The translations under genes and the position numbers were made by a program. Shown piece by piece: positions 19,748-35,034 of a DNA stretch of 64,000 bases (positions are counted from its first letter, which is position 1; every line of letters begins with the position of its first letter). Origin of the DNA: Caballeronia ptereochthonis (GTDB taxonomy: Bacteria; Pseudomonadota; Gammaproteobacteria; Burkholderiales; Burkholderiaceae); NCBI RefSeq assembly GCF_001545075.1, contig NZ_FCOB02000011.1, forward strand, positions 62,001 to 126,000. The letters run 5' to 3'. The notes under the pieces are model-generated. The model had not been told where the DNA came from. It ran no database searches and worked only from the letters and a program-made list of their open reading frames with translations.

Positions 19748-19770
19748 TAACTATGCAAATGGAGATGGAA

Positions 19771-20955
19771 ATGAAGAGGCTCGTGCTTGGACTGGTCCTG
19801 ACGTCCGCAACGGCATATGTCAATGCGCAAAGCAGCGTGACGCTGTATGGAATTGTGGACAATGGCATTGTCTACGAGACGAATCTGCCGAAGGGACATG
19901 TCTTCGGCGCGCAGAGTGGAGGCTGGGCGCAATCGAGATTTGGTCTCAAAGGCGCTGAAGACCTCGGCGGGGGCACCCAGGCTATCTTCCAGCTTGAATC
20001 CCGTTTGAATACCCAGAACGGAAGCTTTGCGAACGGTAGCTTCTTCGAAGGACAGGCGACTGTCGGTTTTCACAACGATACATGGGGCCAGATTAAGTTC
20101 GGGAACATGGGTTCAGCCGAGATTAGCCAGTACTCGGGCGACGTAGACCCTCAGCAAACCAAGAAGTATGCGATTGGAACGCTGGTACGCGGCCGCATCT
20201 TCTCGCAGGCAGCGAACGGCGTGGAGTACCTGTCTCCGACGATTGCCGGTTTCACCCTGCAAGGCCAGTATGACTTGACGAACTCGCCGACGTGGAACGC
20301 CGGCAATCCTGGAAGCGCGCCTGGTCAACTCGGTACTTCCAGCGGACTCGGAAGTTCTCAGGGGCGCTCGGACGGCATCAAATTGTCCTATGCCAACCAG
20401 GGGCTTTTTTGGCAGGCGACGTACGACGAGGTTCGCGACGGCAATGGGCAGTTCAGCAATGTCTATCTTGCGTCACGTTCCATCCTGACCGGCCTGACCT
20501 ATGCATTCGGCCCGGTGACGGCCTATGTTGGCTACCAACACTTGAGTGCACCTGACGCGTCCAATGCAGGCTATTTTGGCACGGCTGCCCCAACAGTGTT
20601 GCCGGCGGGAACGAGCCTCCCGACCACCGTCAATCATGAGTGGATCGGTGCGACGTGGCAGACGACTCCTGCACTCGCTATCACTGGGGCCGTATATCAT
20701 GCCAACGCGAATAAGGGGAATGGAAACGCTACGCTTTACACATTGGGTGTGAACTATTCGCTTTCCAAGCGGACGCTCCTTTATACTGAACTGGGCTACA
20801 TCCGAAACAGTTCAACGTCGAACCTCGGCCTCAACAGTGGCCTGTATGGTGCGAACGTCAACGACGACCCGGCGAACGGTAGCGCGTCGAGCAGCAACCC
20901 CGACTACGGCAAGAGCCAGTTCGGCGTCATCGCGGGCCTCGCGACGAGGTTCTAG
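19771..20955 (+). CDS. Gram-negative general porin (OmpC-like)
   Basis: A 394-residue outer-membrane trimeric beta-barrel of the Burkholderiales porin family. The signal peptide MKRLVLGLVLTSATAYVNAQ is followed by the canonical SSVTLYGIVDNGIVYETN, then SRFGLKGAEDLGGGTQAIFQLES, and it ends with QFGVIAGLATRF with the terminal Phe needed for barrel assembly. The ATG at 19771 is chosen among several in-frame ATGs because GGAG lies six bases upstream and the signal peptide begins there. It probably admits sugars or glycosides, since it may share an operator sequence with the GH3 gene. Confidence 0.93.
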   Translation: MKRLVLGLVLTSATAYVNAQSSVTLYGIVDNGIVYETNLPKGHVFGAQSGGWAQSRFGLKGAEDLGGGTQAIFQLESRLNTQNGSFANGSFFEGQATVGFHNDTWGQIKFGNMGSAEISQYSGDVDPQQTKKYAIGTLVRGRIFSQAANGVEYLSPTIAGFTLQGQYDLTNSPTWNAGNPGSAPGQLGTSSGLGSSQGRSDGIKLSYANQGLFWQATYDEVRDGNGQFSNVYLASRSILTGLTYAFGPVTAYVGYQHLSAPDASNAGYFGTAAPTVLPAGTSLPTTVNHEWIGATWQTTPALAITGAVYHANANKGNGNATLYTLGVNYSLSKRTLLYTELGYIRNSSTSNLGLNSGLYGANVNDDPANGSASSSNPDYGKSQFGVIAGLATRF

Positions 20956-21103: not shown

Positions 21104-22147
21104 CTAAGGGCGGAATCGACTGGCTATGTAGTCCGGTATGTTTTCAGGCGTAACGACCACGACGGACGAAGAGGGCGATACGGCTGAAGCAGGCAAGAGC
21201 TTGTGATAGTGCATGATGTGCTGACACGCGGACCGCATGTCTTGACGGAGGTCATGATGCAAGATTGCTTGAATCCTTCCGTCGCGCAGCAGAGGCACGT
21301 TTTCCCTGTCCAGATCGTGCGCGATGAAGCAGACCGGGACTTGCCGTTGCAGGTCCAATGCGCGAAGAATTGCTTTATTCCCCCCGCCCATGCAGTAGAC
21401 GGCGGCGACGCTGGTTCCGTCATTGAGTACATTTCTGACTCTCTCCTCCGTGGCCAAATCCAGACCACGTCCACCGCTCGCATCGATTAGCCGAAGCTGC
21501 GGATGACGTGTCCTTAAGGCACGACGAAAACTTATTTCGCGCTCCTCCTCGCCCCTGAAATGCTCATCGCTCATCGTAATCAGGACGTTAGCAGGCCCGG
21601 AACCAAGCCATTGCCCGAGGAGATAAGCGGCGGTGGCGCCAGCCGCCCGATTGTCGAGGCCCGCGTACGCAATGCGGGCCGACAGCGGAATGTCGGTGAC
21701 GACCGTGACGACAGGGATGCCATGACGGTGTAACTCACCCACGGCGTCCGCAATCTCCGGAACGTCGCGCGCCTTCAGGAGGACGCCATGGCTTCCTCGG
21801 CGGGCGATTGACCGCAGCACCTCCACGACCTCGGAAGTCGTCATCGTCTCCTGCAGCAAGTAGCGCGGACGAACAACTGCGGGATGCAACATCGGGAGTT
21901 CGGCGTCGAGCGCACTCGCAATTTCATCACTAAAGCGCGAGGGAGCTTCCACGACCACATCAACGATGAGCTTCCGCCCAGTGGTGGCCAGGTTCAACTC
22001 CTGCCTCTCGAGTTCTTTAATCGCCTGCTCGACCCGCTTACGCGTGTGCTCCCGGACGTGCGCACGCCCGTTCAGCACTCTATCGACGGTCGCCACGCCC
22101 AGACCCGCCTGGAGCGCGATTTCCTTGATCAAAAAGCGGTGAGCCAA
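21104..22147 (-). CDS. LacI-family transcriptional regulator, TTG start
   Basis: A 347-residue repressor with head IKEIALQAGLGVATVDRVLNGRAHVREHTRKRVEQAIKEL (about residues 7-47) and a type I periplasmic-binding core including HGVLLKARDVPEIADAV and GIPVVTVVTDIP. The GLGVATVDRVLNGR type of head is common in regulators of inositol and other cyclitols, but that is only a family impression. The start is a TTG at 22147, supported by GGAGGAGGG five bases upstream and by the position of the head; no in-frame ATG precedes the helix-turn-helix. It probably regulates the sugar ABC/dehydrogenase operon that begins at 23577. Confidence 0.87.
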   Translation of the reverse strand: MAHRFLIKEIALQAGLGVATVDRVLNGRAHVREHTRKRVEQAIKELERQELNLATTGRKLIVDVVVEAPSRFSDEIASALDAELPMLHPAVVRPRYLLQETMTTSEVVEVLRSIARRGSHGVLLKARDVPEIADAVGELHRHGIPVVTVVTDIPLSARIAYAGLDNRAAGATAAYLLGQWLGSGPANVLITMSDEHFRGEEEREISFRRALRTRHPQLRLIDASGGRGLDLATEERVRNVLNDGTSVAAVYCMGGGNKAILRALDLQRQVPVCFIAHDLDRENVPLLRDGRIQAILHHDLRQDMRSACQHIMHYHKLLPASAVSPSSSVVVVTPENIPDYIASRFRP

Positions 22148-22529
22148 TTCGACCCTCCTCCGTTGATGTGGTCTGATGCGTTTTTGAAGCGCCGTTGGGT
22201 GACTCCCAAGCTATCCTACATCGAAAAAGAGCGTGCGCGCATGGTTGCTCGCAGGAACGTGTGTTCGGGCCCAGATCGTCGGAATCCGTGATGGTGGCGG
22301 CCGATGCGCGAGCGTAAGACGCGAACGACCGTACGTGGCCGCCGATGCTGCTTCCCGGGCGAGACTATCTGTCCACCTGGGCATCTGATGGATTGTTGAT
22401 GTGTTTTGGTTGTTTAAAGATAGACGCCTTGAACTATCATGATGTCGGCGTGCCACAAAAAATTCGACGATATCGCGTGCCCTGCATTGAGTTCAATGCG
22501 GGCAGAAAAGGGCGAGACGGTGCAAGGCT
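22148..22529. other. Divergent intergenic region between LacI and LysR genes
   Basis: About 380 bp carrying the promoters of both divergent regulators; the only clear element is the strong ribosome site of the LacI gene at its left end. No gene is supported. Confidence 0.4.
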
Positions 22530-23444
22530 ATGGACCAGTTCAAGGAGTTGCAACTGTTCGTCGAAGTCGCTGAGACGGGCAGTATCAGTCGAGCCGCGGA
22601 AGCCGTCGAGCTTTCAATTTCGGCGGCAAGTCGGTATCTGATTTCGTTGGAGACAAGGCTCGGGATTCAACTGGTACGCAGGACCACCCGCAATCTTTAC
22701 CTGACAGAAGCCGGCGCCGAGTTTCACCGGCGTTGCAAATCCATCCTCGCAGACCTTGGTGAAGCCGAAGCAGTAATCAAGGAGGCGGTCGTACGTCCTA
22801 GCGGCGTGCTCCGCGTCACCGCTTCGTTATCGTTCTGCATGCTGCACATAGCGCCAATGCTTCCTGATTTCACGGCGCGTTATCCCGAGATCACCGTAGA
22901 TGTGGTAGCCGCTAACCGCTACTACGACATCATTGAGAATGGCATCGACGTAGCGATAAGAACCAAGGTCCTTGAGCCGGATAGCAACATCACGATTAGA
23001 AGACTGGCGTCGACACGTCGCATACTGGCTGCATCGCCCGGCTATATCGAGGTCAACGGCCGTCCTCGCTTCCCGGCGGAGCTTGCGAAGCACAGGCTGC
23101 TCAACTATCAACTAGCCGACAATCCACGCGAGCTTGCTTTTACACGTGGTGGCGAGAACGTCGTTGTCAGGGTGAAGCCTTTGGTGGAGTCAAACGACGG
23201 CCAGATATTGCGCCTCGCCGCACTCGACAACATGGGCATTCTCGTGCAGCCCAAATACATTATCTACGACGACCTCAAGGCCGGCCGCCTCGTCCCGGTG
23301 CTCGACGACTGGGACCTTCCCCGGCTGACCATGAACATTGCATTTCAGACCCGCTCGCATCTTCCGGTGAAGGTGCGGTTGTTCATTGACGCGCTTGTGG
23401 AGCGGTTCCAGCAGAACGACTACGAACGGCATTGGACGGCGTGA
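22530..23444 (+). CDS. LysR-family transcriptional regulator
   Basis: A 304-residue regulator. The winged helix-turn-helix LFVEVAETGSISRAAEAVELSISAASRYLISLETRLGIQLVRRTTR (residues 8-53) belongs to the CrgA-like branch, and the effector domain begins near residue 90 (VLRVTASLSFCMLHIAPMLPDF). It lies 132 bp upstream of and in the same direction as the dioxygenase gene, so it may activate or repress the ring-cleavage operon with an aromatic inducer, alongside the LacI regulator responding to the sugar side. Confidence 0.88.
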   Translation: MDQFKELQLFVEVAETGSISRAAEAVELSISAASRYLISLETRLGIQLVRRTTRNLYLTEAGAEFHRRCKSILADLGEAEAVIKEAVVRPSGVLRVTASLSFCMLHIAPMLPDFTARYPEITVDVVAANRYYDIIENGIDVAIRTKVLEPDSNITIRRLASTRRILAASPGYIEVNGRPRFPAELAKHRLLNYQLADNPRELAFTRGGENVVVRVKPLVESNDGQILRLAALDNMGILVQPKYIIYDDLKAGRLVPVLDDWDLPRLTMNIAFQTRSHLPVKVRLFIDALVERFQQNDYERHWTA

Positions 23445-23576
23445 GCCCCGTGCTCATCGCAATTGAGGCTTCTTCCCACTCAGCGCGAAAGACTTTCCCT
23501 TTCCAGCTCTGTTTTGCCAGCCAAGGCGAATATAGACTCGTCTCAAAGCTACAGAAAAGATTGATGGAGACACTCA

Positions 23577-24497
23577 ATGCAAAGCCCATCCTCTGCAGTC
23601 CAGTCCGAGTTGCCGTACTTCGATGAAGCTCGCTCGGCAGATGTCGTCAATGCTCGTATGAGCGAAGATGCCGACGCTCGTCTGCGCCACGTCATGTCCG
23701 TTCTGGTTAGGCATCTTCATGCCGCGGTGAAGGAAATCGAACCGACGCACGAAGAGTGGTTCACCGCCATCCGCTTCCTGACCGAGACGGGTCAAATGTG
23801 TACGGACTGGCGGCAAGAGTACATCCTGCTCTCGGACATCCTCGGCGTCTCGATGCTGGTCGACGCAATCAACCATCGTCGTCCGAGCGGTGCTACGCCG
23901 AACACGATTCTGGGTCCGTTCTACATCGCGAACGCACCCGAGTATCCGAACGGCGCGAATATCTGCCTGGATGGAAAGGGCGAGCCCATGGTTGTCGAAG
24001 GTCGCGTAACCGATATCGAGGGAAACCCGATTCCGAACGCGAAGTTGGAAGTGTGGCAGACCAACGACGACGGCTTCTATGACGTGCAGCAAAAAGGCAT
24101 TCAGCCTGATTCAAATCTTCGCGGCGTTTTTACGTCGGATTCTGAAGGCCGCTACTGGTTCAGGTCGGTCAAGCCGCGTCACTATCCGATTCCGTCGGAC
24201 GGCCCGGTCGGAAAGCTCCTCGGCGCAATGGGGCGGCACCCGAACCGTGCCGCTCACTTGCACTTTATCGTGACTGCCCCAGGATTCGACCCGGTCATCA
24301 CTCACATCTTCACGCCGGACTGCCCATATCTCCCCGAGGACGCAGTCTTCGGCGTCAAGCGTGAACTCATCGCCGAATTCAACAAGATTGACGACACAGA
24401 GGCAGCGAAGCGCGTCGGAGTCTCATCGCCGTTCTGGTCTGTGTCGTGGGACTTCACTCTCGCGACGTCCACCACCCCCACTCGGGCAACCCCGTAA
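23577..24497 (+). CDS. Intradiol dioxygenase, hydroxyquinol (or catechol) 1,2-dioxygenase type
   Basis: A 306-residue Fe(III) enzyme cleaving a catecholic ring between the two hydroxyls. The N-terminal helical linker domain (about residues 30-100, with EEWFTAIRFLTETGQMCTDWRQEYILLSDILGVSMLVDAIN) precedes the beta-barrel. The four iron ligands are visible: Tyr116 in LGPFYIANAPEY, Tyr203 in RHYPIPSDGPVG, and His227 and His229 in AAHLHFIV. Presence of a maleylacetate reductase gene in the same run favours hydroxyquinol as substrate, because the product would be maleylacetate. The ATG at 23577 follows GGAG. It is the first gene of a nine-gene co-directional run ending at 33126. Confidence 0.85.
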   Translation: MQSPSSAVQSELPYFDEARSADVVNARMSEDADARLRHVMSVLVRHLHAAVKEIEPTHEEWFTAIRFLTETGQMCTDWRQEYILLSDILGVSMLVDAINHRRPSGATPNTILGPFYIANAPEYPNGANICLDGKGEPMVVEGRVTDIEGNPIPNAKLEVWQTNDDGFYDVQQKGIQPDSNLRGVFTSDSEGRYWFRSVKPRHYPIPSDGPVGKLLGAMGRHPNRAAHLHFIVTAPGFDPVITHIFTPDCPYLPEDAVFGVKRELIAEFNKIDDTEAAKRVGVSSPFWSVSWDFTLATSTTPTRATP

Positions 24498-24565
24498 TCG
24501 TTTGGCACGCGGGAGCGCGTGTCGTCAAGAATTTGATGAAATCATGTAACACAGGAATCCTACAT

Positions 24566-25447
24566 ATGAGCGCGAAGAATACTGAACTGCTGGCTGCGTA
24601 CTGGACCCTTGCCGGCGACGTTTATCCGTGTGCACCGACCGAGATCAGCCCGTTCCCGCTGCGTGAGCGCTGCGAAGCGGCGTCGCGTGCCGGCTGGAGC
24701 GGCATTGGACTCATTCTCGACGATCTCGAGTACAGCATCGAGAAGTATGGGCTCTCCGGCGTCAAGAAAGTTCTGGACGACACGGGCATGAAGTACTTCG
24801 AGCTCGAAATTCTCATGGACTGGTACCTCGACGGCGAGGCGCGCGCCAAATCGGATAGTTGCCGCCGCCGTTTCATCGAACTGGGCAGCGAGCTCGGCAT
24901 GCGCAACCTGAAGATCGGCGCGAGCCCCTTCGACGAAAGTCCGGCCGACTTTCCGCGCATGACCGACGAATTCGCGAAGCTTTGCGAAGACGTGGCGACG
25001 GTTGGCGCGACGGTCGCAATCGAGTTCATGCCTTTTTCTCCCATCCGAAATGTCGCAGACGCGCTGAAGGTTGCTGAAGGCGCGAATCAGCCCAATGGCG
25101 GACTGATGGTGGACCATTGGCACGTCGCGCGCGCCAGCACGCCGTATAGCGAAGTCGCCCGCATCCCGGCGCGCTTCATCAAGGGAGTAGAGCTGGATGA
25201 CGTGGGCGCGCGGGTCAAGGGGACGCTGTTCGAGGATTCGACCTTTAATCGCCAGCTTTGCGGCGAAGGTGCAGGCGACTGTCCGGCCTTTATTGATGCC
25301 TTGAAACGAGCGGGCTGCACGCTTCCTTACTACGGCGTGGAACTCATCTCGGAGGTGCACCGGAAGCTTCCGCTCGAAGAGATGGCAAAGCGTGCTTACG
25401 ACACCACCATCGCGCAGTTCTCGGCAAAACCCGCCACTGCCGCCTGA
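24566..25447 (+). CDS. Sugar phosphate isomerase/epimerase-like TIM-barrel enzyme
   Basis: A 293-residue protein of the AP-endonuclease-2/xylose-isomerase-like TIM-barrel family that includes IolE (2-keto-inositol dehydratase), IolI and the beta-eliminating partners of keto-glycoside pathways. The expected metal ligands are Glu in VAIEFMPFS, Asp in GLMVDHWHVA and Glu in YYGVELISEVH; the position often occupied by His or Gln lies in FIKGVELDD. The ATG at 24566 (AGGAA upstream) is used; the longer frame overlaps the dioxygenase. Its place before two Gfo/Idh/MocA dehydrogenases suggests it acts on a keto-cyclitol or 3-keto-glycoside. The precise reaction is unknown. Confidence 0.75.
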   Translation: MSAKNTELLAAYWTLAGDVYPCAPTEISPFPLRERCEAASRAGWSGIGLILDDLEYSIEKYGLSGVKKVLDDTGMKYFELEILMDWYLDGEARAKSDSCRRRFIELGSELGMRNLKIGASPFDESPADFPRMTDEFAKLCEDVATVGATVAIEFMPFSPIRNVADALKVAEGANQPNGGLMVDHWHVARASTPYSEVARIPARFIKGVELDDVGARVKGTLFEDSTFNRQLCGEGAGDCPAFIDALKRAGCTLPYYGVELISEVHRKLPLEEMAKRAYDTTIAQFSAKPATAA

Positions 25448-25488
25448 TGCTTCTGACCTTGAACCATAAAGTATTTCTGGAGACTCAC

Positions 25489-26481
25489 ATGATTCGAATC
25501 GCCGTACTCGGTGCTGGCCGCATCGGTCGTATTCACGCCGGCAACGTCGCCGCGAGCCCGAATGCACAACTGGTCGTCGTGGCAGACCCCGTTGAAAGTG
25601 CAGCCAACGCGCTGGCTAGCCGCCTCGGCTGCGAAGCATCGACGGACCCCGCAGGCGTCCTCGAGCGCAATGACATCGACGCAGTGGTCATCGGTACGCC
25701 GACGGACACGCACATTACGTTCATGCTCGAGGCCGTCAAGCGCGGCAAGGCTGTTCTGTGCGAGAAGCCCATCGACCTGGACATGGACAAGTCGCTCGCC
25801 GCGGCAAACGAAGTCGAGCGCCTGGGCGGTCGCGTCATGCTCGCGTTCAATCGACGTTTCGATCCGACGTCGCAGGCCTTTCGCAGGGCGATCGACGCGG
25901 GCGACGTTGGCGAGGTGCGTCAGGTCATCATTTCGAGCCGCGACCCGGGCATGCCTCCCCGCGATTATGTCGAGCACTCGGGTGGCATTTTCCGCGACAT
26001 GGTCATCCATGACCTGGACATGGCTCGCTGGCTGCTCGGCGAAGAGCCGGTTGAGGTAATGGCCATGGCGAGCCGCCTCGTTGACGAGTCGCTCGAGGAA
26101 CTGACCGACTTCGATACGGTGATGGTTCAGTTGCGCACCGCTTCGGGAAAGCAATGCCACATCAACTGCTGCCGCGAAGCCGTGTACGGCTACGACCAGC
26201 GCATGGAAGTGTCGGGTTCGAAGGGCATGCTCCTGCAGGAGAACCTCCGTCCGTCGACGATTCGCCGCTGGTCGAAGGACGCCACGGACGCGCGGGAGCC
26301 GCTCCTCAACTTCTTTCTCGAGCGCTACGTGGAAGCGTACAAGGCTGAGCTCGAAGCCTTCGTCGAAGCACTGAACACGAATTCGCCGCTGCCGACATCC
26401 GTTCAGGACGGGCTGAAAGCGTTGCGGCTGGCGGATGCTGCACTCGAATCCGCGCTGGCGGGCAAAGCAGTCAAAGTGTAA
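25489..26481 (+). CDS. Inositol 2-dehydrogenase-like oxidoreductase (IolG family)
   Basis: A 330-residue NAD-dependent dehydrogenase of the Gfo/Idh/MocA family. The Rossmann motif is AVLGAGRIGRIHAGNV (residues 5-20). The catalytic lysine is Lys93 in CEKPIDLD, and Asp170 and His174 in FRDMVIHDLDMARW match the Lys/Asp/His triad of Bacillus subtilis IolG. It would oxidise a ring hydroxyl of an inositol or related polyol or glycoside to a ketone. The ATG at 25489 has GGAG seven bases before it. Similarity is strongest to bona fide inositol dehydrogenases, but sugar or levoglucosan dehydrogenases share these motifs. Confidence 0.82.
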   Translation: MIRIAVLGAGRIGRIHAGNVAASPNAQLVVVADPVESAANALASRLGCEASTDPAGVLERNDIDAVVIGTPTDTHITFMLEAVKRGKAVLCEKPIDLDMDKSLAAANEVERLGGRVMLAFNRRFDPTSQAFRRAIDAGDVGEVRQVIISSRDPGMPPRDYVEHSGGIFRDMVIHDLDMARWLLGEEPVEVMAMASRLVDESLEELTDFDTVMVQLRTASGKQCHINCCREAVYGYDQRMEVSGSKGMLLQENLRPSTIRRWSKDATDAREPLLNFFLERYVEAYKAELEAFVEALNTNSPLPTSVQDGLKALRLADAALESALAGKAVKV

Positions 26482-26505
26482 CTGGGAATCCGGAGGAGAT
26501 AAGTC

Positions 26506-27594
26506 ATGACGCGAAAGATTGCTCCCAACGAAACGCTCGGCGTGGCATGTCTTGGCATCACTCACCCGCATACCTCCGGGCGAGTCAAGGCAATCCAGCG
26601 TCGTACGGACGCGAAGATGCTCGGTGCGTGGGATACGAGCCCGCTGCTCACTCCCTTCGTCGACGCGCTCGGTCTCGAGGCGCGCTCGAAGGAAGACATC
26701 CTGGCAGACGAGAACGTGCATGTCGTGCTCGTCCACTCCAAGAGCGAGAAGATGGCCGCCCTGACCATTGAGGCGCTCGAAGCCGGCAAGGCCGTGCTAT
26801 GCGAAAAACCGGCCGGCCGCAGTTCGGCGGATGCGAAGCGCATCGTCGAGGCTGTGGAACGTACCGGCGGCCTCGTGCAGGTCGGCTACTGCTGGCGCTT
26901 CGCTCCTTCGGTCGACGCCATGCAAGCGGCGCTCAAGAGTGGCCGTCTCGGGAAAGTCGTGCAGGTGCGCGCCCACGGCGGTTGCTCGCACGATGAGGCG
27001 GGTACGCCTCACATGACTCAGCCAGGCGACATCGGCGGCGCAGTGTTCGTTATCGGTTGCCACCTCATCGACCGCATTCTTCTGCACTTCGGCTTGCCGC
27101 GCTCTGTGAACGCCCGCATCACGAAGTTCCCGAACTTCCACGGCGACGAATCGCGTGAGGACGCGGCAGGTGCGGTGCTGAACTACAAAGACAAGATCGT
27201 CACCGTCGACTTCATGTCCTGGGACGTTCTGCCGTGGACGGAGAGCTGGGACATCACCGCGTACGGGACGGAAGGCATCATGTCTTCCCGCTCGTTGCCC
27301 GCGAGCTACAAGATTTATGACGCGGGCAAAGGCGACCATCCGGAGGGCTGGACCGAGTGGCAGGAGACCAGCTTCCCGGAAATCTGGGCGACGAAAAAGA
27401 CGGAGTATTCGCCCGATATCGCTGAAATCGGCAACCCGGTGTACTTCGACCGCGAGTCGAACGCGTTCTTCGACGCGTTGCGCAACGGAACGCCGTCGGT
27501 CGTGCCCGCCACGCAGGCGTACAACATCAGCCGCGTCATCGAGGCCATGTTCGCTTCTTCCAAAGAGGCTGGTGCAGAAGTCTTTATCGGTTAA
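26506..27594 (+). CDS. Gfo/Idh/MocA-family oxidoreductase
   Basis: A 362-residue NAD(P)-dependent dehydrogenase distinct from the preceding IolG-like protein. The N-terminus LGVACLGITHPHTSGRVKAIQRR departs from the usual GxGxxG loop. The catalytic lysine is in CEKPAGRSS, and the later HLIDR in GCHLIDRILLHFG supplies a histidine. Translation starts after a strong GGAGGAGATAAG site, 24 bp after the previous gene. Two non-identical members of this family next to an isomerase-type enzyme recall oxidise-eliminate-reduce pathways (levoglucosan, C- or O-glycosides) as well as inositol isomer interconversion. Substrate unknown. Confidence 0.82.
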   Translation: MTRKIAPNETLGVACLGITHPHTSGRVKAIQRRTDAKMLGAWDTSPLLTPFVDALGLEARSKEDILADENVHVVLVHSKSEKMAALTIEALEAGKAVLCEKPAGRSSADAKRIVEAVERTGGLVQVGYCWRFAPSVDAMQAALKSGRLGKVVQVRAHGGCSHDEAGTPHMTQPGDIGGAVFVIGCHLIDRILLHFGLPRSVNARITKFPNFHGDESREDAAGAVLNYKDKIVTVDFMSWDVLPWTESWDITAYGTEGIMSSRSLPASYKIYDAGKGDHPEGWTEWQETSFPEIWATKKTEYSPDIAEIGNPVYFDRESNAFFDALRNGTPSVVPATQAYNISRVIEAMFASSKEAGAEVFIG

Positions 27595-27690
27595 GCGCTT
27601 TAACGGCTGGCACCCTCGGGCGTCAGTCGACGATTCCACGGGTTATAAACCGGAAGCGTAAATACGCATTCCTAATCAGGAGACGATGTG

Positions 27691-28761
27691 ATGAAGATTT
27701 TGAAGACTGTCGCGGCTATTATGGCCGCCTCGGCAGCTTTCTCGGCAACGTCGGGTGCTGCTTTCGCCCAGGATAAGGGTGTCGTTGGCATTTCGCTGCC
27801 CGACAAGACCGAATCTCGCTGGATTACCGACGGGAAAAGCATGGTCGACGCGCTGAAGGCGAAAGGCTACTCGGCCGACTTGCAGTACGCGAACTACGAC
27901 GTTCCGACGCAGGTGAATCAGGTCGAGAACATGCTCGCGAAGGGCGTCAAGGCACTGGTCATCGCGCCTATCGACGGCAAGACCTTTTCTGACGCTCTGG
28001 CGCTCGCCCAGAAGAAAGGCATCAAGGTCATCTCGTACGACCGCCTGATCAGCCAGACCAAGGACGTCGACTACTACGCGACCTTCGACAACTACGGCGT
28101 CGGCGTCCTGCAAGCGCAGAGCATTGTCAGCGCCTGGCAGAAAGCGGGCAGCAAGACCCCGTTCAACATCGAAGTGTTCGGCGGTTCCTCTGACGATAAC
28201 AACGCCCACATGGTCTACGCGGGCGGCATGTCGATTCTGAAACCGTACATCGACAGCGGCAAGTTCGTGATTCGCAGCAAACAGATGGCCTTCGAAAAAG
28301 TCGCGACACGCAACTGGGATGGCGCGACCGCTCAGGCCCGGATGGACAACTTGCTGAGCGCATTTTATGGCAAGGACCACCTCGATGCGGTCTGGGCACC
28401 GAATGACGCGCTGGCGATCGGCATTATCTCGTCTCTCAAGGGCGTGGGATACGGTTCGGGTCAGCAAGCTATGCCCATCATCACGGGACAGGACGCCGAT
28501 ATTCAGAACGTCAAAAGCATCGTTCGAGGGGAACAGACATCCACCGTGTTCAAGGACACGCGCAAACTCGCTGGCGTGACCGCCGACATGGTCGATAACG
28601 CGTTGACGGGCAAGCAGGTGACCATCAACGACACGAAGAGCTACAACAACGGCGCGAAGATCGTTCCCACCTACCTCGTGAAGCCGGTCCTGGTGGACAA
28701 GGCTAACTATCAGTCGGAGCTGGTCTCCAGCGGCTACTACACGCAGGCGCAAATCAAGTAA
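27691..28761 (+). CDS. Sugar ABC transporter substrate-binding protein (ChvE-like)
   Basis: A 356-residue periplasmic receptor. The signal peptide MKILKTVAAIMAASAAFSATSGAAFA is cleaved before QDKGVVGISLPDKTESRWITDG. The sequence closely resembles the multiple-sugar receptor ChvE/xylose-binding branch (LQYANYDVPTQVNQVENMLAKGVKALVIAPIDG, DAVWAPNDALAIGI). The ATG at 27691 is used; a GTG lies one codon earlier. With the next two genes it forms a complete importer. A stable GC hairpin after the stop codon (28781-28806) probably lets the receptor be made in excess over the membrane parts. Confidence 0.9.
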   Translation: MKILKTVAAIMAASAAFSATSGAAFAQDKGVVGISLPDKTESRWITDGKSMVDALKAKGYSADLQYANYDVPTQVNQVENMLAKGVKALVIAPIDGKTFSDALALAQKKGIKVISYDRLISQTKDVDYYATFDNYGVGVLQAQSIVSAWQKAGSKTPFNIEVFGGSSDDNNAHMVYAGGMSILKPYIDSGKFVIRSKQMAFEKVATRNWDGATAQARMDNLLSAFYGKDHLDAVWAPNDALAIGIISSLKGVGYGSGQQAMPIITGQDADIQNVKSIVRGEQTSTVFKDTRKLAGVTADMVDNALTGKQVTINDTKSYNNGAKIVPTYLVKPVLVDKANYQSELVSSGYYTQAQIK

Positions 28762-28780
28762 GGCAACTGCACATCAGCGC

Positions 28781-28806
28781 GGCGGGGATCTCAGCAAAAC
28801 CCCGCC
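28781..28806 (+). terminator. Intra-operon attenuator stem-loop
   Basis: GGCGGGG (28781-28787) pairs with CCCCGCC (28800-28806) over a 12-nt loop, between the receptor gene and the ATPase gene of the same operon, with no U-run. Such stem-loops commonly stabilise receptor mRNA or attenuate downstream expression. Confidence 0.55.
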
Positions 28807-28851
28807 TCACGCGGGCACGCGCCGAGCGTGACCAACCAGAGGAATTTGACC

Positions 28852-30390
28852 ATGGATACCATTCTGGAGATGCGCGGGATTCAGAAAAGCTTTGGCCCTG
28901 TCAAAGCGCTGAATAACGTGAACATGAGGGTGCGCCAGGGCGAGATTCACGCCATTTGTGGAGAGAATGGCGCGGGAAAATCGACCCTGATGAAGATCCT
29001 CAGTGGCGTCTACCCGCACGGCTCCTATTCCGGCGACGTCCTTTACGACGGTCAGGAACGCAAATTCGCCGATATTTCCGACAGCGAGGCCGTCGGAATC
29101 ATCATCATCCACCAGGAGCTTGCCCTCGTTCCTATGCTCTCGATTACCGAGAACATCTTTCTCGGTAACGAACAGTCCAGGCGCGGCGTCATCGATTGGC
29201 AGGTGTCGCACGCGAAAGCCCGGGAACTGTTGACGAAGGTAGGCCTCACGGACTCTCCGGACGCACCGGTCGGCACGCTCGGGATTGGCAAACAGCAACT
29301 TGTTGAAATTGCGAAGGCACTGTCGAAAGAGGTTCGTTTGCTCATTCTCGACGAGCCTACGGCAAGCTTGAATGAGAAGGACAGTGACACGCTTCTCACG
29401 CTGCTGCTCGAGTTGAAATCGCGTGGTGTCACGTCAATCATCATCTCGCACAAGCTGAACGAAATCTCGCGCGTTGCGGACAGTATCACCGTCATTCGCG
29501 ATGGCTCGACGGTCGACACACTCGATTGCCGTGCGGAAAGTGTCAGTGAAGACCGCATCATCAAGGCGATGGTTGGTCGGGAGATGTCCGACCGGTATCC
29601 GCCGCGTACGCCGAACATCGGCGAGGTGATCTTTGAAGTCAAGGATTGGCGTGTCCAGCATCCCACGCAGCGGGACCGTGCTGTTATCAAGGGGGTAAAT
29701 CTGAAGGCGCGCAAGGGCGAAATCGTCGGTATCGCAGGGCTGATGGGCTCCGGGCGCACGGAACTCGCGATGAGCGTCTTCGGCGGCACATACGGTCAGG
29801 GCATCTCCGGCCACGTGCTGATGCACGGAAAGCAGGTTGACGTCTCATCGGTACAGAAGGCCATCAAGGCGGGCATCGCGTATGTGACCGAAGACCGGAA
29901 AGGAAACGGTCTGCTCCTGGACGACAACATCAAGCGAAACATCACGCTGGCGAACCTGTCCGGAGTCTCCAGGTTAGGCGTTGTCGACGAGCACGAAGAG
30001 ATAACGGTCGCGACGGATTTTCTCAAGAAGCTTCGAATCCGCGCGCAAGGCGTCACCCACGTCGTTGGCAACCTGTCGGGCGGCAACCAGCAGAAGGTCG
30101 TGCTGAGCAAGTGGCTGTTCTCCGAACCCGAGGTGCTGATTCTCGACGAGCCCACACGAGGCATCGATGTGGGGGCGAAGTACGAGATCTACAACATCAT
30201 CAATCAGGCGGTTGCGGCAGGTAAGTGTGTGGTCATGATTTCCTCGGAAATGCCCGAACTTCTTGGCATGTGCGACCGTGTTTATGTCATGAACGAAGGC
30301 CGGTTTGTCGGCGAATTCACCGCAGAAGAAGTCTCGCAGGAAAAAATCATGCGAGCGATTATGCGAAATGGAGGCATCGAAAATGCGTAA
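28852..30390 (+). CDS. Sugar ABC transporter ATPase, double-domain (GguA-like)
   Basis: A 512-residue ATPase with two nucleotide-binding domains. The first has Walker [10 protein letters not shown] (about residue 37) and Walker [16 protein letters not shown]; its signature is degenerate ([15 protein letters not shown]), as usual in this family. The second has the atypical Walker [11 protein letters not shown] and an intact LSGGNQQK signature with [13 protein letters not shown]. This is the normal CUT2 arrangement and matches the GguA/MmsA type that accompanies ChvE. The ATG at 28852 follows AGAGGA and is preferred over the upstream GTG. It overlaps the permease gene by 8 bp. Confidence 0.9.
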
Positions 30391-31591
30391 GGCACTCTCT
30401 CCGGTGGCCGCCGAAGGCACCGAGGTCAAGAAAAGCGAAGTTTTCGGAACGCTCAAGCGTATTGGCAGCGAATATGGCCTGCTCCTTTCGCTCGTCATCA
30501 TCATGGTGTTCTTCCAGGTCTCGACGAATGGCGTGCTGATGCAGCCGCTCAACCTGACCAACCTGGTGCTTCAGAACAGCTATATCGTCATCATGGCGCT
30601 CGGCATGCTCATGGTGATCGTGTCAGGCCATATCGACCTCTCGGTCGGCTCGACAGCCGGTTTGGTGGGCGCGTTGGCAGCGGTGCTGATGGTGCAGTAT
30701 GACGTCAACTACATCTGGGCGACCATCATCTGTATCGCGGCGGGCGCGCTGATTGGCGCCGTGCAAGGCTACTGGATTGCATTCTGGCGGATGCCGTCGT
30801 TCATCGTGACGCTGGCCGGCATGCTGGTTTTCCGCGGTATGACGAACCTCGTGCTCCAGGGCCAATCCATCGGCCCGTTCCCCGATGCTTTCGGCGCTGT
30901 GAGTTCGGGCTTCATCCCTGACCTCTTTCACGGGCAAGCGCTCCACATCACCTCGATATTGCTCGGCGTTTTCGTCGGCGCCCTGTTCTTCGTAATCGAA
31001 CTGCGTCATCGCGCAGGTGCTGCGAAGCACGGAGTCGAGAGCGGTTCGTTCGCCATGTTCGTAACGAAGAACGTCGTTCTCACCGCGCTGATTGTGTTCT
31101 TCTGTTACCTGCTTGCATCGTATCGTGGCCTGCCTACGGTCCTCGTCATCATGGGTGTGCTGATTGGCGTCTATACGTTCATCATGAATCGCACGACAAT
31201 CGGTCGTCGAATCTATGCGGTTGGCGGCAACGCAAAGGCGGCGAGATTGTCGGGTGTCAGCGTGCCGGCCGTGAGTTTCCTGACCTTCGTGAACATGGGC
31301 GTTCTTGCGGCGCTGGCAGGTCTGATTTTCGCCGCGCGCCTGAATAGCGGAACACCGAAGGCCGGCACCGGATTCGAGCTCGACGTCATCGCAGCGTGTT
31401 TCATTGGCGGTGCCTCCGCATCCGGTGGTGTCGGAAAGGTTGTCGGCGCGGTCGTGGGCGCCTTCATCATGGGCGTGATGAACAACGGCATGTCCATCAT
31501 GGGTATCGGCGTGGACTATCAGCAGGTCATCAAAGGCATCGTTCTGCTCGCAGCCGTGTTCGTCGACGTCTACAACAAGAATAAGGCGTAA
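30383..31591 (+). CDS. Sugar ABC transporter permease (GguB-like)
   Basis: A 402-residue inner-membrane permease of the CUT2/BPD_transp_2 family. The start at 30383 follows GGAGG inside the end of the ATPase gene. It shows about ten hydrophobic helices, with [25 protein letters not shown] (the conserved GHIDLSVGS) and the ATPase-contact loop [26 protein letters not shown]. The extended middle region (residues about 190-240, [23 protein letters not shown]) is typical of the GguB/XylH branch rather than RbsC. Confidence 0.9.
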
Positions 31592-31622
31592 CGGCTCCTT
31601 TACGGCAGACCAGATTTAGAAC

Positions 31623-31657
31623 TCAGCGGGGCAAGACGAGTGGCGAGGCCCCGCTGA
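31623..31657 (+). terminator. GC-rich stem-loop after the permease gene
   Basis: TCAGCGGGGC (31623-31632) pairs perfectly with GCCCCGCTGA (31648-31657) over a 15-nt loop, downstream of the permease and before the Dabb gene. No U-run follows, so it is a candidate attenuator or RNA-stability element separating the transporter from the last two genes. Confidence 0.6.
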
Positions 31658-31729
31658 CATGCATACTTGAGTCATGGATTGCATCTCGAACATTTGGCCT
31701 GTTCATAAGCATCACTAATGGAAATAAAT

Positions 31730-32026
31730 ATGGTCAAGCATATCGTTATGTGGAACGTTCGCGGTGAGACTTCCGAGCAAAAGAAGGAATCCGCGATGCT
31801 CGTAAAGACCGCGTTCGAGAGCCTGAGCGGGAAGATTCCCGGGCTTACCAAGCTGGAGGTCGGGCTGGATGTAAGCGCCGTGGACTATGCCTGTGACGTC
31901 GTCTTGTACACGGAATTCGAAAACCAGGAATTGCTCGACGCGTATGCATCGCATCCTGAGCATCTGCGAGTGAAGCAAATCGTGGGTGACGTTCGCATCG
32001 CTCGCCACCAGGTCGACTACATCTAA
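31730..32026 (+). CDS. Dabb-domain (stress-responsive alpha/beta barrel) protein
   Basis: A 98-residue ferredoxin-like dimeric alpha/beta-barrel protein. MVKHIVMWNVRGETSEQ and PGLTKLEVGLDVSAVDYACDVVLYTEFENQELLDAYASHPEHLRVK are characteristic Dabb motifs; His4 and the His of YASHPEH line the usual cavity. Family members include plant polyketide cyclases and many small proteins in catabolic operons of unknown function. Its position between the transporter and maleylacetate reductase suggests a role in handling a reactive cyclic intermediate, which is inference only. The start at 31730 is preferred over an ATG four codons upstream. Confidence 0.82.
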   Translation: MVKHIVMWNVRGETSEQKKESAMLVKTAFESLSGKIPGLTKLEVGLDVSAVDYACDVVLYTEFENQELLDAYASHPEHLRVKQIVGDVRIARHQVDYI

Positions 32027-32064
32027 GCGAGCTATATCGTTCGACGATACAGGAAGCAAATCTC

Positions 32065-33126
32065 ATGTATGAGTTCACCTACACCACGCCGGCGGCGAGA
32101 GTCGTGTTCGGCGCTGGGAGCATGAAGCTGATTCAACAGGAAGTCGAGACCTTGGGGGCACGTCGTGCGTTAGTTCTCTGTACGCCCGAGCAGAAGGCGC
32201 AAGCCGAGGTGGTTTCGTCTCTTCTCGGTCCTTCGAGCGCTGGAGTCTTCGACGGCGCCCAAATGCATGTTCCCATAGAGAACGCCCGCCGCGCCCGCGA
32301 GCACGCCAAGTCTGTCGACGCGGACTGTGCGGTGGCAATCGGCGGCGGTTCCACGATCGGACTCGGCAAGGCGATTGCGCTCGAATCGTCACTGCCGATC
32401 ATCGCAATACCGACGACCTACGCTGGGTCGGAGATGACGCCAATCTACGGGATAACCGAAAACGGTCTTAAGAAAACGGGTCGCGATACCAAGGTCATCC
32501 CGAAGACTGTTCTTTACGACCCGGAGCTGACGCTCGGGCTTCCGGTTCGTCTCTCCATTGTCAGCGGTCTTAACGCCATCGCGCATGCCGCGGAGGGGCT
32601 GTATGCGAAGGACGGGAATCCCATCATGTCGCTGATGGCAGAGGAAGGCATTCGCTCTCTTGCCAATGGCCTGCGTGGAGTGAAGAAGAACGGCAAGGAT
32701 AAAGCGGCGCGCAGCGAGTGTCTCTACGGTGCGTGGCTGTGCGGAATGGTGCTCGGCAATGTCGGCATGGCCCTTCATCACAAGCTTTGTCATACCTTGG
32801 GCGGAACGTTCAATCTTCCTCACGCCGAGACGCATGCAATCGTTCTTCCTCATGCCCTCGCTTATAACAGTACCGTCGCGGGCGAGGCAATGGATCGAAT
32901 TGCCAGGGCGCTGAACGTAGAGTCTGCGCCTGATGGCCTCTACCAGCTCAACCAGGAACTTGGGGTAGCTCGAGGCCTTCGCGAGATCGGGTTAGGCGAA
33001 GCCGACCTGGACCACGCGTGCGAGGTTGCTTTGTCAAACCCATACTGGAACCCGCGACAGATAGAGAAAGATCCGCTTAGAGCACTGCTGCAGCGTGCCT
33101 GGGAGGGTGCCCGTCCCGCCGTTTAG
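32065..33126 (+). CDS. Maleylacetate reductase (iron-containing alcohol dehydrogenase family)
   Basis: A 353-residue enzyme reducing maleylacetate to 3-oxoadipate with NAD(P)H, the step after hydroxyquinol ring cleavage. YTTPAARVVFGAGSM at the N-terminus, the nucleotide site AIGGGSTIGLGKAIAL and IAIPTTYAGSEMTPIYG are typical of this subgroup. Histidines of the active site occur in AIAHAAEGLYA, HHKLCHTLGG and HAETHAIVLPHAL. The DSPMMD-like metal motif of other family-III dehydrogenases is absent, as in known maleylacetate reductases. It closes the run that starts with the intradiol dioxygenase, confirming an aromatic ring-fission branch leading to the 3-oxoadipate pathway; later steps are not in the window. 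Confidence 0.88.
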   Translation: MYEFTYTTPAARVVFGAGSMKLIQQEVETLGARRALVLCTPEQKAQAEVVSSLLGPSSAGVFDGAQMHVPIENARRAREHAKSVDADCAVAIGGGSTIGLGKAIALESSLPIIAIPTTYAGSEMTPIYGITENGLKKTGRDTKVIPKTVLYDPELTLGLPVRLSIVSGLNAIAHAAEGLYAKDGNPIMSLMAEEGIRSLANGLRGVKKNGKDKAARSECLYGAWLCGMVLGNVGMALHHKLCHTLGGTFNLPHAETHAIVLPHALAYNSTVAGEAMDRIARALNVESAPDGLYQLNQELGVARGLREIGLGEADLDHACEVALSNPYWNPRQIEKDPLRALLQRAWEGARPAV

Positions 33127-33155
33127 ATTTGGACAAATTTGAGGCAGCGGACCGT

Positions 33156-34632
33156 TCACTCGCGATACGCAGCGAACCTCGACGTCTTCCCGGTGCCTGG
33201 GTTGAAGCAATTGCACGGATCGAGCTTCCTGTAGAACGCGGCGAGTTGCGGTTTCGCCTCGTACAGATGCCCCACGTTGTGCTCGGCGGGATACTCCGCG
33301 CCGCGATCGTCGAGCAGTTCCAGCATCTCGTGCTTCAGCGCCATGCAGTCCTTGCCCTTCACGACGATGTAGTCCTGGTGAAAGACGTGACACAGGAAGT
33401 GCCCGTAGTAAAGCTTCAGTACGATCTCCTGCTCGATGTTCCGCGGCAAGCTCTCGAACCAGTCGCGGTCGTTGCGTCGTAGCGCGATATCGAGCGCGAC
33501 GATGTCTTCCACATCGCGATGATGCACCGCGCGATAGCGCACGGCCGCGCTCGCCGCCGCGAAGCGGTGCAGGAATGCCTTGCGGCCTTCCTCATCGGTG
33601 CATTCGAAATACGCGCCTTCGGATTGCGCGAATCGTTGCGACAGAAACGCGCGCGCTTCGTCGATGTCCGCCGCTGGCACCTTCAGCATCAGGTGATGCG
33701 CATACTCCTCGCGATAGGCCATCAGACGCGCGGGCAGATGTTCCGGCAGACGCTCGCTGATCCATTGCAGCACGCGATCGGTCAGATGCTTCGGCATGAA
33801 GCCGAGGCGCTCGAACCACGCATCGCAGCGCGTCTTCAGATTGAAGAACAGCGGCAGGCGGTGCGTGCCGAACCTGTCGATGATGACGAACAGGTCCTTC
33901 CCATACTTTCGCGCGACGTCGAACGCATCGCGATGCAGATATTCACCCGCGATCGGCAGATGCGCGAAATTCGCGAGCGCGCGGCGTCGAATGTCGGTCA
34001 GCACGCTCGTATCGTTCGTGCCGATGTAGAACACCTTCGCGCCCTTTTCCGCCGCGAACGTGCACGCCCGACGCATCGACGGCGGCGAACAGCGCCATCT
34101 CCGTATAGGCCGGTCCGCGATGCACGAGCGAGCCGCCCGAATTGTTGCTGATGCCGCCGAGCACCGACGCGCCGATACACGAGGATCCGATCACCGAATG
34201 CGGCTCGCGTCCGAGCGGCTTCAGCGTGCGTTCGAGCTGATCGAGCGTCGTGCCGCCGATGCAGACCACCTGACGGCCGCGCTCGATCAGATGAACACGC
34301 CTGATGCGCGTCGTGCTGATGATCACGACGTCGCGGCCGTAGTCATCGCCATCGGGCGTCGAGCCGCCAGTCAGTCCGGTATTCGACGCCTGCGTGATGA
34401 CGATCGTGCGCGCAGCGACGCAGGCGGCGAGCGTGCGCCATTGCTCGAGCAGTGTGCCGGGACGCACGACCGCCAGCACGCGGCCCGTGCCGAAGCGATA
34501 GCCCCTGCGGTAGCGGCGCGTCCGGGCGTCGCCGGTCAGCACGTTGCGCGCGCCGACGATATCGCCGAGCGACGCGAGCAACGGTCCATTTGCGTTGCCG
34601 TGCGAGAGGGCGGGCTGGGCTGTATCGGACAT
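33156..34632 (-). pseudogene. dld: D-lactate dehydrogenase (quinone), disrupted by deletion and frameshift
   Basis: The N-terminal FAD-binding part (from the ATG at 34632; ASNTGLTGGSTPDGDDYGRDVVIIST, SCIGASVLGGISNNSGGSLVHRGPAYTEMALFA) and the C-terminal membrane-binding part (GAKVFYIGTNDTSVLTDIRR to CNCFNPGTGKTS) of a Dld-type enzyme lie in different frames, meeting near 34070-34080. Against the ~570-residue family, about 75 residues are missing at the junction after VDASG, and the reading frame changes. A functional enzyme (D-lactate to pyruvate, electrons to quinone) is therefore not expected. Downstream parts look otherwise uneroded, so the lesion may be fairly recent. A truncated MFS gene precedes it on the same strand. 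Confidence 0.85.
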
Positions 34633-34639
34633 GGCGACC

Positions 34640-35034
34640 TCAGACGCGGCTCGGCTCCGAAGACGCCGCCGCCGATGACGAGATCGCACGTTGCGTCAGC
34701 GTCAGCACCGCGCCGAGGAGCAGCGCCGCCGCGACGACGACCAGACCCGCGTTCGTGCTGTGCGTCACGTCCTTCATCCAGCCGATGATCGACGGACTGA
34801 CGAACCCGGCGAGATTGCCGATTGAGTTGATCATCGCGATTCCGGCAGCGGCGGCGGTGCCGGTCAGTACGCTGCTCGGATAGGTCCAGAAGACCGGCAT
34901 CATCGACAGCACGCCGGCCGTGCCGAGCGACAGCGTGAGCATGGCGAGCGCGAGATTGCCCGCATGGAGCGTGCTCGCGTAGAAGCCCGCTGCCGCGGCG
35001 GCGCGTCCGCTCGCGCCTGCCTTCGACGCGCATG
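34640..35034 (-). pseudogene. MFS transporter, C-terminal fragment
   Basis: Only the last ~130 residues of an ACS-type MFS carrier remain: LAMLTLSLGTAGVLSMMPVFWTYPSSVLTGTAAAAGIAMINSIGNLAGFVSPSIIGWMKDVTHSTNAGL, corresponding to helices 9-12. The rest of a ~430-residue protein is missing; the GNAT gene ends just beyond the break. It would have formed an uptake-oxidation pair with the broken dld gene that follows it 8 bp later. Confidence 0.8.

Follow-up and report, generated by a model that had tools for sequence, protein, structure and literature searches.

In the hydroaromatic quinate/shikimate pathway, the 3-dehydroshikimate dehydratase QuiC acts ahead of intradiol ring cleavage, and the route leads to 3-oxoadipate. 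The hydroxyquinol branch is known from the degradation of resorcinol, nitrophenols and chlorophenols, and oxidation to a 3-keto-glycoside followed by elimination is known for levoglucosan and for the DgpABC system. Here we compare with these systems, and with the canonical inositol (iol) operon, a nine-gene locus of Caballeronia ptereochthonis located in a 64,000-nucleotide stretch of contig NZ_FCOB02000011.1 (positions 62,001 to 126,000; hereafter, the window). The genes lie co-directionally on the plus strand at positions 23577-33126 of the window, in the order dioxygenase, xylose-isomerase-like TIM barrel, IolG-like dehydrogenase, a second Gfo/Idh/MocA protein (designated GFO2), sugar-binding protein, ATP-binding cassette (ABC) ATPase, permease, Dabb protein and maleylacetate reductase. 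All the families named in a first-pass annotation of this DNA were found there, with support from Pfam and NCBIfam. Judging from gene content, we consider it fairly probable that the operon encodes a pathway of cyclitol aromatisation, a reading that includes the inositol route discussed below.

Unlike the quinate/shikimate pathway, the operon has an IolG-type oxidation, would proceed through hydroxyquinol rather than protocatechuate, and contains a sugar importer, Dabb and GFO2. Its TIM barrel fails the QuiC model NF042435 (28.1 bits with a cut-off of 1200), although this is a poor test, with a model of 635 positions set against a protein of 295 residues. From the canonical iol operon it differs in having no IolB, IolC/J, IolD or IolE, which are encoded on another contig (C68) of the same genome, and in a route that would end in aromatic ring cleavage. 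The hydroxyquinol branch has the same pair of hydroxyquinol dioxygenase and maleylacetate reductase; in the operon, however, the aromatic compound would come from a cyclitol, and there is no monooxygenase. The 3-keto-glycoside systems are alike in combining a Gfo/Idh/MocA protein with a TIM-barrel eliminase, whereas the IolG of the operon falls in the inositol family and the window operon has one TIM gene only.

The nine genes are arranged as an operon. For the TIM barrel, IolG, the sugar-binding protein, the ATPase and the permease (the latter at about 30368), the starts given in Table 1 were inferred from homologue alignments and preferred over those of the longest open reading frames. With these starts, the intergenic gaps are, in order, 68, 41, 24, 96 and 90 bp, an overlap between ATPase and permease, then 126 bp (the largest) and 38 bp. 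In a scan of positions 22400-33400, no plus-strand terminator-like match fell between operon genes; the six plus-strand matches were all within coding sequence, and the total of 12 matches was about at the level of shuffled sequences (mean 9.8, standard deviation 3.5). The host genome has a size of 7.7 Mb, and the named relatives that stand closest to it in the tree and tables belong to the Burkholderiaceae.

The first gene product is, by sequence, a dioxygenase of the hydroxyquinol type and a putative hydroxyquinol-cleaving enzyme. It scored 316.5 bits against the 6-chlorohydroxyquinol dioxygenase 8r2x and 241.6-259.5 bits against PnpC, 1tmx (246.6) and two more relatives, compared to at most 140.5 bits against catechol dioxygenases, which places it nearer to the hydroxyquinol enzymes. 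The four iron ligands reported by the first-pass annotation could be located: Y168, Y203, H227 and H229, which we take to have this role, are conserved at 95% or more in an alignment of 53 sequences. For the last gene product the top match was 3jzd, named an iron-containing alcohol dehydrogenase (505 bits), and the scores against 3w5s and 3hl0, both named maleylacetate reductase, were 409 and 391 bits, consistent with the function initially assigned. A hydroxyquinol-type dioxygenase along with a last gene resembling maleylacetate reductase thus indicates conversion of hydroxyquinol to maleylacetate and on to 3-oxoadipate. Genes for the next steps are present in other versions of the cluster: 3-oxoacid CoA-transferase subunits and PcaF in Aureimonas, a CoA transferase and a PcaF-type thiolase in Acinetobacter, and a 3-oxoadipate:acetyl-CoA acetyltransferase, scoring above its cut-off, in Puniceibacterium. 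On the same contig, some 26 kb upstream, a second intradiol dioxygenase gene lies next to genes for an aldehyde dehydrogenase and an iron-type alcohol dehydrogenase (locus L098, 6611-9988, contig C36).

The gene set was traced in 70 loci picked by the TIM gene, whose presence is therefore a selection criterion and was not counted as evidence. The dioxygenase was present in 55 of these loci and GFO2 in 48. Every GFO2 locus had the dioxygenase (48/48); IolG was found in 44, the reductase in 40, and Dabb in 38 by tblastn (37 by gene calls). The eight stretches without the reductase (L011, L027, L031, L042, L047, L051, L056 and L059) were shorter than 17 kb in four cases and about 20.8 kb long in the other four. 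The 70-locus counts used a 60% threshold, and the reductases of rhizobial plasmids are only 50-54% identical to that of the window. A plasmid search by GFO2 alone, which avoids the bias of selection by TIM, produced 13 records, 12 of which were inspected (H27 was left out); the dioxygenase, TIM barrel, Dabb and reductase were within 20 kb in 12/12. In five of the 13 records GFO2 was in two or three pieces, and the genes of L107 were broken.

The order of the genes varies among Burkholderiales, Rhodobacterales/Aureimonas, Acinetobacter, Pseudomonas and rhizobia, as do the importer, the first dehydrogenase and the clade of the dioxygenase. When the neighbourhood was sought in other genomes, as proposed along with the initial annotation, the genes proved to stay linked in beta-, gamma- and alphaproteobacteria, with changes in their order and in the dioxygenase clade. 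The coupling of the genes is not due to chance and is well supported. Could sugar-catabolism genes and a hydroxyquinol module nevertheless be merely adjacent, with no common pathway? The locus 26 kb upstream, where an intradiol dioxygenase and an iron-type alcohol dehydrogenase occur without GFO2, fits such an explanation, but the co-occurrence in 48/48 and 12/12 loci in spite of rearranged order and exchanged dioxygenase clades makes it very improbable.

In the dioxygenase tree, the enzymes of the GFO2 clusters fell into three groups, and a single IolG clade (support 99/99) was paired with two of them; hence the pairing of the dioxygenase and IolG parts probably arose more than once. That one IolG clade goes with different clades of dioxygenase also argues against a single-transfer origin of all the clusters. 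The dioxygenase tree was made without 14 of the 19 loci L007-L025, which were near duplicates, and without proteins shorter than 250 residues and identical rows; it has long branches (the own-genome rows, 1tmx and PnpC), and its deep joins are unsure.

Several loci showed other arrangements. In Paraburkholderia rhynchosiae (L063, 4560-5300), a decayed dioxygenase of the window type follows a conserved LysR gene and promoter region, and is itself followed by the reductase and another version of the cluster; this points to the replacement of a cassette at the same site. Five loci (L030, L032, L033, L037 and L039) carry a version without IolG and GFO2, made up of a dioxygenase, a flavin mononucleotide (FMN) reductase, an amidohydrolase, a TIM barrel and a reductase, with a Gfo protein and a short-chain dehydrogenase/reductase (SDR) nearby; the family scan covers L030. 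On an Agrobacterium plasmid (L081, 3250-6343), genes for a substrate-binding protein and a methyl-accepting chemotaxis protein are placed between parts of the cluster, an arrangement that may reflect chemotaxis toward the substrate.

The IolG of the operon passes the inositol 2-dehydrogenase model TIGR04380 (395.9 bits, cut-off 355) and retains the Lys/Asp/His triad noted initially, as K93, D170 and H174, presumably the catalytic residues. A canonical myo-inositol operon is encoded separately in the host, on contig C68, and comprises IolC/J (1102 bits), IolD (899), IolE (407), IolB (334) and its own IolG (414), all above the cut-offs; this canonical IolG is 45% identical to that of the operon. 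Among 21 genomes, including the host's own, the canonical-type IolGs were 44-46% identical to the window protein, and the other group 65-95%. A tree of 64 rows separated 13 canonical-type rows with 98/97 support, leaving the window IolG outside them; the cluster-type group of 50 rows had 89/91 support, row L102 had a very long branch, and a further IolG-like gene of the host (C68:270220-271218; 308.6 bits, below the cut-off) had no row of its own. At a conservation of at least 90%, the two groups agree in 96 positions, and 46 positions set them apart. Since the protein passes the inositol model and has motifs in common with the canonical enzymes, yet belongs to a separate group, it probably acts on an inositol-like ring, not necessarily myo-inositol. 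In two relatives, G686 and G690, a canonical IolG gene is accompanied by a pair of non-canonical ones, which are separated by about 14 kb and show 90% and 66% identity to that of the window; G690 has an additional copy with 82% identity.

For the TIM-barrel protein, the AlphaFold2 model (mean pLDDT 91.1) had Lmo2234, IolI and the TIM-barrel fusion 5hmq as nearest folds, and the 2-hydroxy-3-keto-glucal hydratase 8ro4 was among the matches. An E/D/E/E pattern occupies the positions that we assume to hold the metal ligands. A search of the host genome with the IolE model TIGR04379 at E 0.001 gave three places, none of them the operon TIM gene. The importer is of the ChvE/GguA type by its models; the ChvE/GguAB-like assignment of the first-pass annotation was borne out for the binding protein and the ATPase by NF040907 and NF040905, and for the permease by Pfam and position.

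From these parts, a pathway can be outlined. A polyhydroxycyclohexane, most likely a quercitol-type deoxyinositol, would be imported by the ChvE/GguA-type system, and IolG would turn the carbon adjoining the CH2 group into a ketone. Two waters would then be lost, the first, beta to this ketone, through the metal-dependent TIM barrel and the second through Dabb, possibly with GFO2, to yield 1,2,4-trihydroxybenzene (hydroxyquinol). The dioxygenase would then open the ring to maleylacetate, which the last enzyme would reduce to 3-oxoadipate. The gene families, their coupling, the hydroxyquinol type of the dioxygenase, the maleylacetate reductase and the 3-oxoadipate genes of other versions are supported by sequence and neighbourhood; from these we infer which substrate is used, in what order the steps follow and what TIM, Dabb and GFO2 do. 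In older work, inosose esters give 1,2,3,5-tetrahydroxybenzene by elimination of the two hydroxyls beta to the ketone (PMC5327690), and a review records 1,2,4-trihydroxybenzene from myo-inositol derivatives by elimination (PMC11467972). By our own deduction, equal eliminations on a ketone with an adjoining CH2 would give 1,2,4-trihydroxybenzene, that is, hydroxyquinol. This chemistry suits a deoxyinositol that is oxidised at the carbon adjoining its CH2 group, a substrate that we name tentatively and at less than even chance. An incomplete search of open-licence papers, by titles and the beginnings of abstracts, found no cyclitol-to-hydroxyquinol pathway.

GFO2 is the signature gene of this cluster type and is present in a single copy in the host genome. 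Its overall fold is that of Gfo/Idh/MocA proteins, near levoglucosan dehydrogenase, scyllo-inositol dehydrogenase and DgpA, so the earlier assignment to this family stands as regards the fold. It lacks, on the other hand, the glycine motif for NAD and the catalytic Asp that are usual in the family: Thr/Ser19 and His22 take the places of glycines two and three of GxGxxG, and Val182 occupies the catalytic Asp position, in 40/40 aligned sequences (chosen from the 48 locus genes and search matches, 120 of 442 being listed). Our own first guess, a plain NAD oxidoreductase, is put in doubt by this loss of motifs. We do not call GFO2 non-redox, because a glycine loop that departs from the standard may nonetheless accommodate NAD(P). 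A further proposition is that GFO2 represents a novel type of Gfo/Idh/MocA enzyme, dehydrating or aromatising instead of performing ordinary NAD redox chemistry, within a widespread modular pathway that leads from cyclitols (quercitol or inositol) to hydroxyquinol and in which front-end dehydrogenases and importers are exchangeable; in our judgement this is rather unlikely. Another hydroaromatic polyol (a conduritol, cyclohexanetetrol or aminocyclitol) could also be the substrate, with GFO2 aromatising it like a dimeric dihydrodiol dehydrogenase; given that further Gfo structures match GFO2 equally well or better and that the usual NAD motif is missing, we regard this as improbable.

One version of cyclitol aromatisation would give every gene a task, GFO2 too. 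In it an inositol isomer is aromatised in a redox-neutral way, by one oxidation, one reduction and the loss of three waters. IolG would form inosose, and TIM would carry out the IolE reaction to trihydroxycyclohexane-1,2-dione; GFO2 would use the NADH just formed to reduce one of the two ketones, giving a deoxyinosose, and Dabb would take off two further waters. Loss of three waters from inositol leaves C6H6O3, which is also the formula of hydroxyquinol, and this route also agrees with the inositol-dehydrogenase motifs of IolG, the fold of GFO2 near levoglucosan and scyllo-inositol dehydrogenases, and the chemical precedent in the review cited above (PMC11467972). Against it, the host already has a canonical myo-inositol operon, GFO2 has neither GxGxxG nor the catalytic Asp in any of the aligned sequences, and TIM had no match to the IolE model at the E-value used, so we see this version as unlikely. 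Both this route and the odd active site of GFO2 go beyond the first-pass annotation.

That annotation had combined polyol redox, import and hydroxyquinol cleavage in one pathway, a proposal that now has partial support, firm for the neighbourhood, and had left two models for it. The conversion of a cyclitol to a trihydroxybenzene is favoured by the IolG motifs, the likeness of TIM to IolI and 5hmq, the single TIM gene and the lack of a ring hydroxylase. The second model, in which a phenolic glycoside is imported, its sugar is oxidised to the 3-keto form, the aglycone is released through beta-elimination by TIM and ring cleavage of the phenol follows, came out weaker. The sugar-type importer, the fold of GFO2 near levoglucosan dehydrogenase and DgpA, and 8ro4 among the TIM matches all agree with it, as does the Gfo protein of another cluster version, with levoglucosan dehydrogenase as its best NCBIfam match (106 bits, below the cut-off of 650). 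But the operon IolG, which passes the inositol model, scores 83.7 bits against the same cut-off of 650 for levoglucosan dehydrogenase; the window operon has neither a ring hydroxylase nor a second TIM gene; and hydroxyquinol itself would have to be the aglycone. This model is therefore quite unlikely.

Several observations weigh against the proposed cyclitol aromatisation. The dioxygenase was not in the stretch for 15 of the 70 TIM loci, and tblastn did not find Dabb in 10 of the 48 GFO2 loci (six from Acinetobacter, four of which carry an ABM-cluster gene, and four shortened stretches). IolG was absent from 10 of the 12 GFO2-picked plasmid loci (present in 2/12), and the seven annotated ones among these ten have SDR and zinc-type or other alcohol dehydrogenases; such alternatives imply that IolG is not pathway-defining. 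The NCBIfam models of the importer are named for multiple monosaccharides and point to sugars as much as to cyclitols, and GFO2 is left with no clear task in the quercitol/deoxyinositol version.

The LysR gene, on the same strand as the operon and 132 bp upstream of the dioxygenase, likely regulates it; relatives with 82-96% identity precede the cluster in loci L007-L026, L059, L063 and L064. An alignment of 24 intergenic regions showed a conserved palindrome, GAAAGACTTTC, a candidate operator, and, after it, a conserved element TATAGACT near 23531. LacI relatives with at least 70% identity occur in 26 of the 70 loci (the window-type loci plus L030, L037, L039, L061 and L063); this conserved neighbour may belong to the regulon. 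A porin gene (19753-20955) lies upstream of it, with relatives of 81-91% identity in 21/70 loci, all of the window type. On the minus strand at 33156-34689, a gene for membrane-binding D-lactate dehydrogenase appears split into two overlapping frames (PF09330 and PF01565 halves), probably by a frameshift.

Table 1. Features of the operon and its upstream region (positions in the window).
Feature	Position	Strand	Basis
LacI-type regulator with sugar-binding-like domain	21104..22147	-	PF00356 and PF13407
LysR-type regulator, probable operon regulator	22530..23444	+	Pfam HTH_1 and LysR_substrate
Candidate operator palindrome GAAAGACTTTC	23487..23497		Conserved block, alignment of intergenic regions
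Intradiol dioxygenase, hydroxyquinol 1,2-dioxygenase type	23577..24497	+	Bit scores to known enzymes; tree
Xylose-isomerase-like TIM barrel, proposed keto-cyclitol dehydratase	24566..25447	+	PF01261
IolG-like inositol dehydrogenase	25489..26481	+	TIGR04380
GFO2, atypical Gfo/Idh/MocA protein	26506..27594	+	Fold, motif loss, co-occurrence
ChvE-like sugar-binding protein	27691..28761	+	NF040907, 479.7 bits (cut-off 460)
GguA-like ABC importer ATPase	28852..30390	+	NF040905, 864.4 bits (cut-off 810)
ABC importer permease, GguB-like by position	30368..31591	+	PF02653; start inferred
Dabb small alpha/beta-barrel protein, proposed second dehydratase or tautomerase	31718..32026	+	PF07876
Maleylacetate reductase	32065..33126	+	Kinship to solved structures

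If cyclitol aromatisation is true, bacteria convert cyclitols into a benzene ring so as to feed on them, as a counterpart of the quinate route. Such a pathway could explain the use of quercitols or rare inositols by soil and plant bacteria, and would provide functions for the TIM-barrel, Dabb and odd Gfo/Idh/MocA families that are found together in many genomes. It would also offer enzymes for the production of hydroxyquinol from renewable cyclitols.

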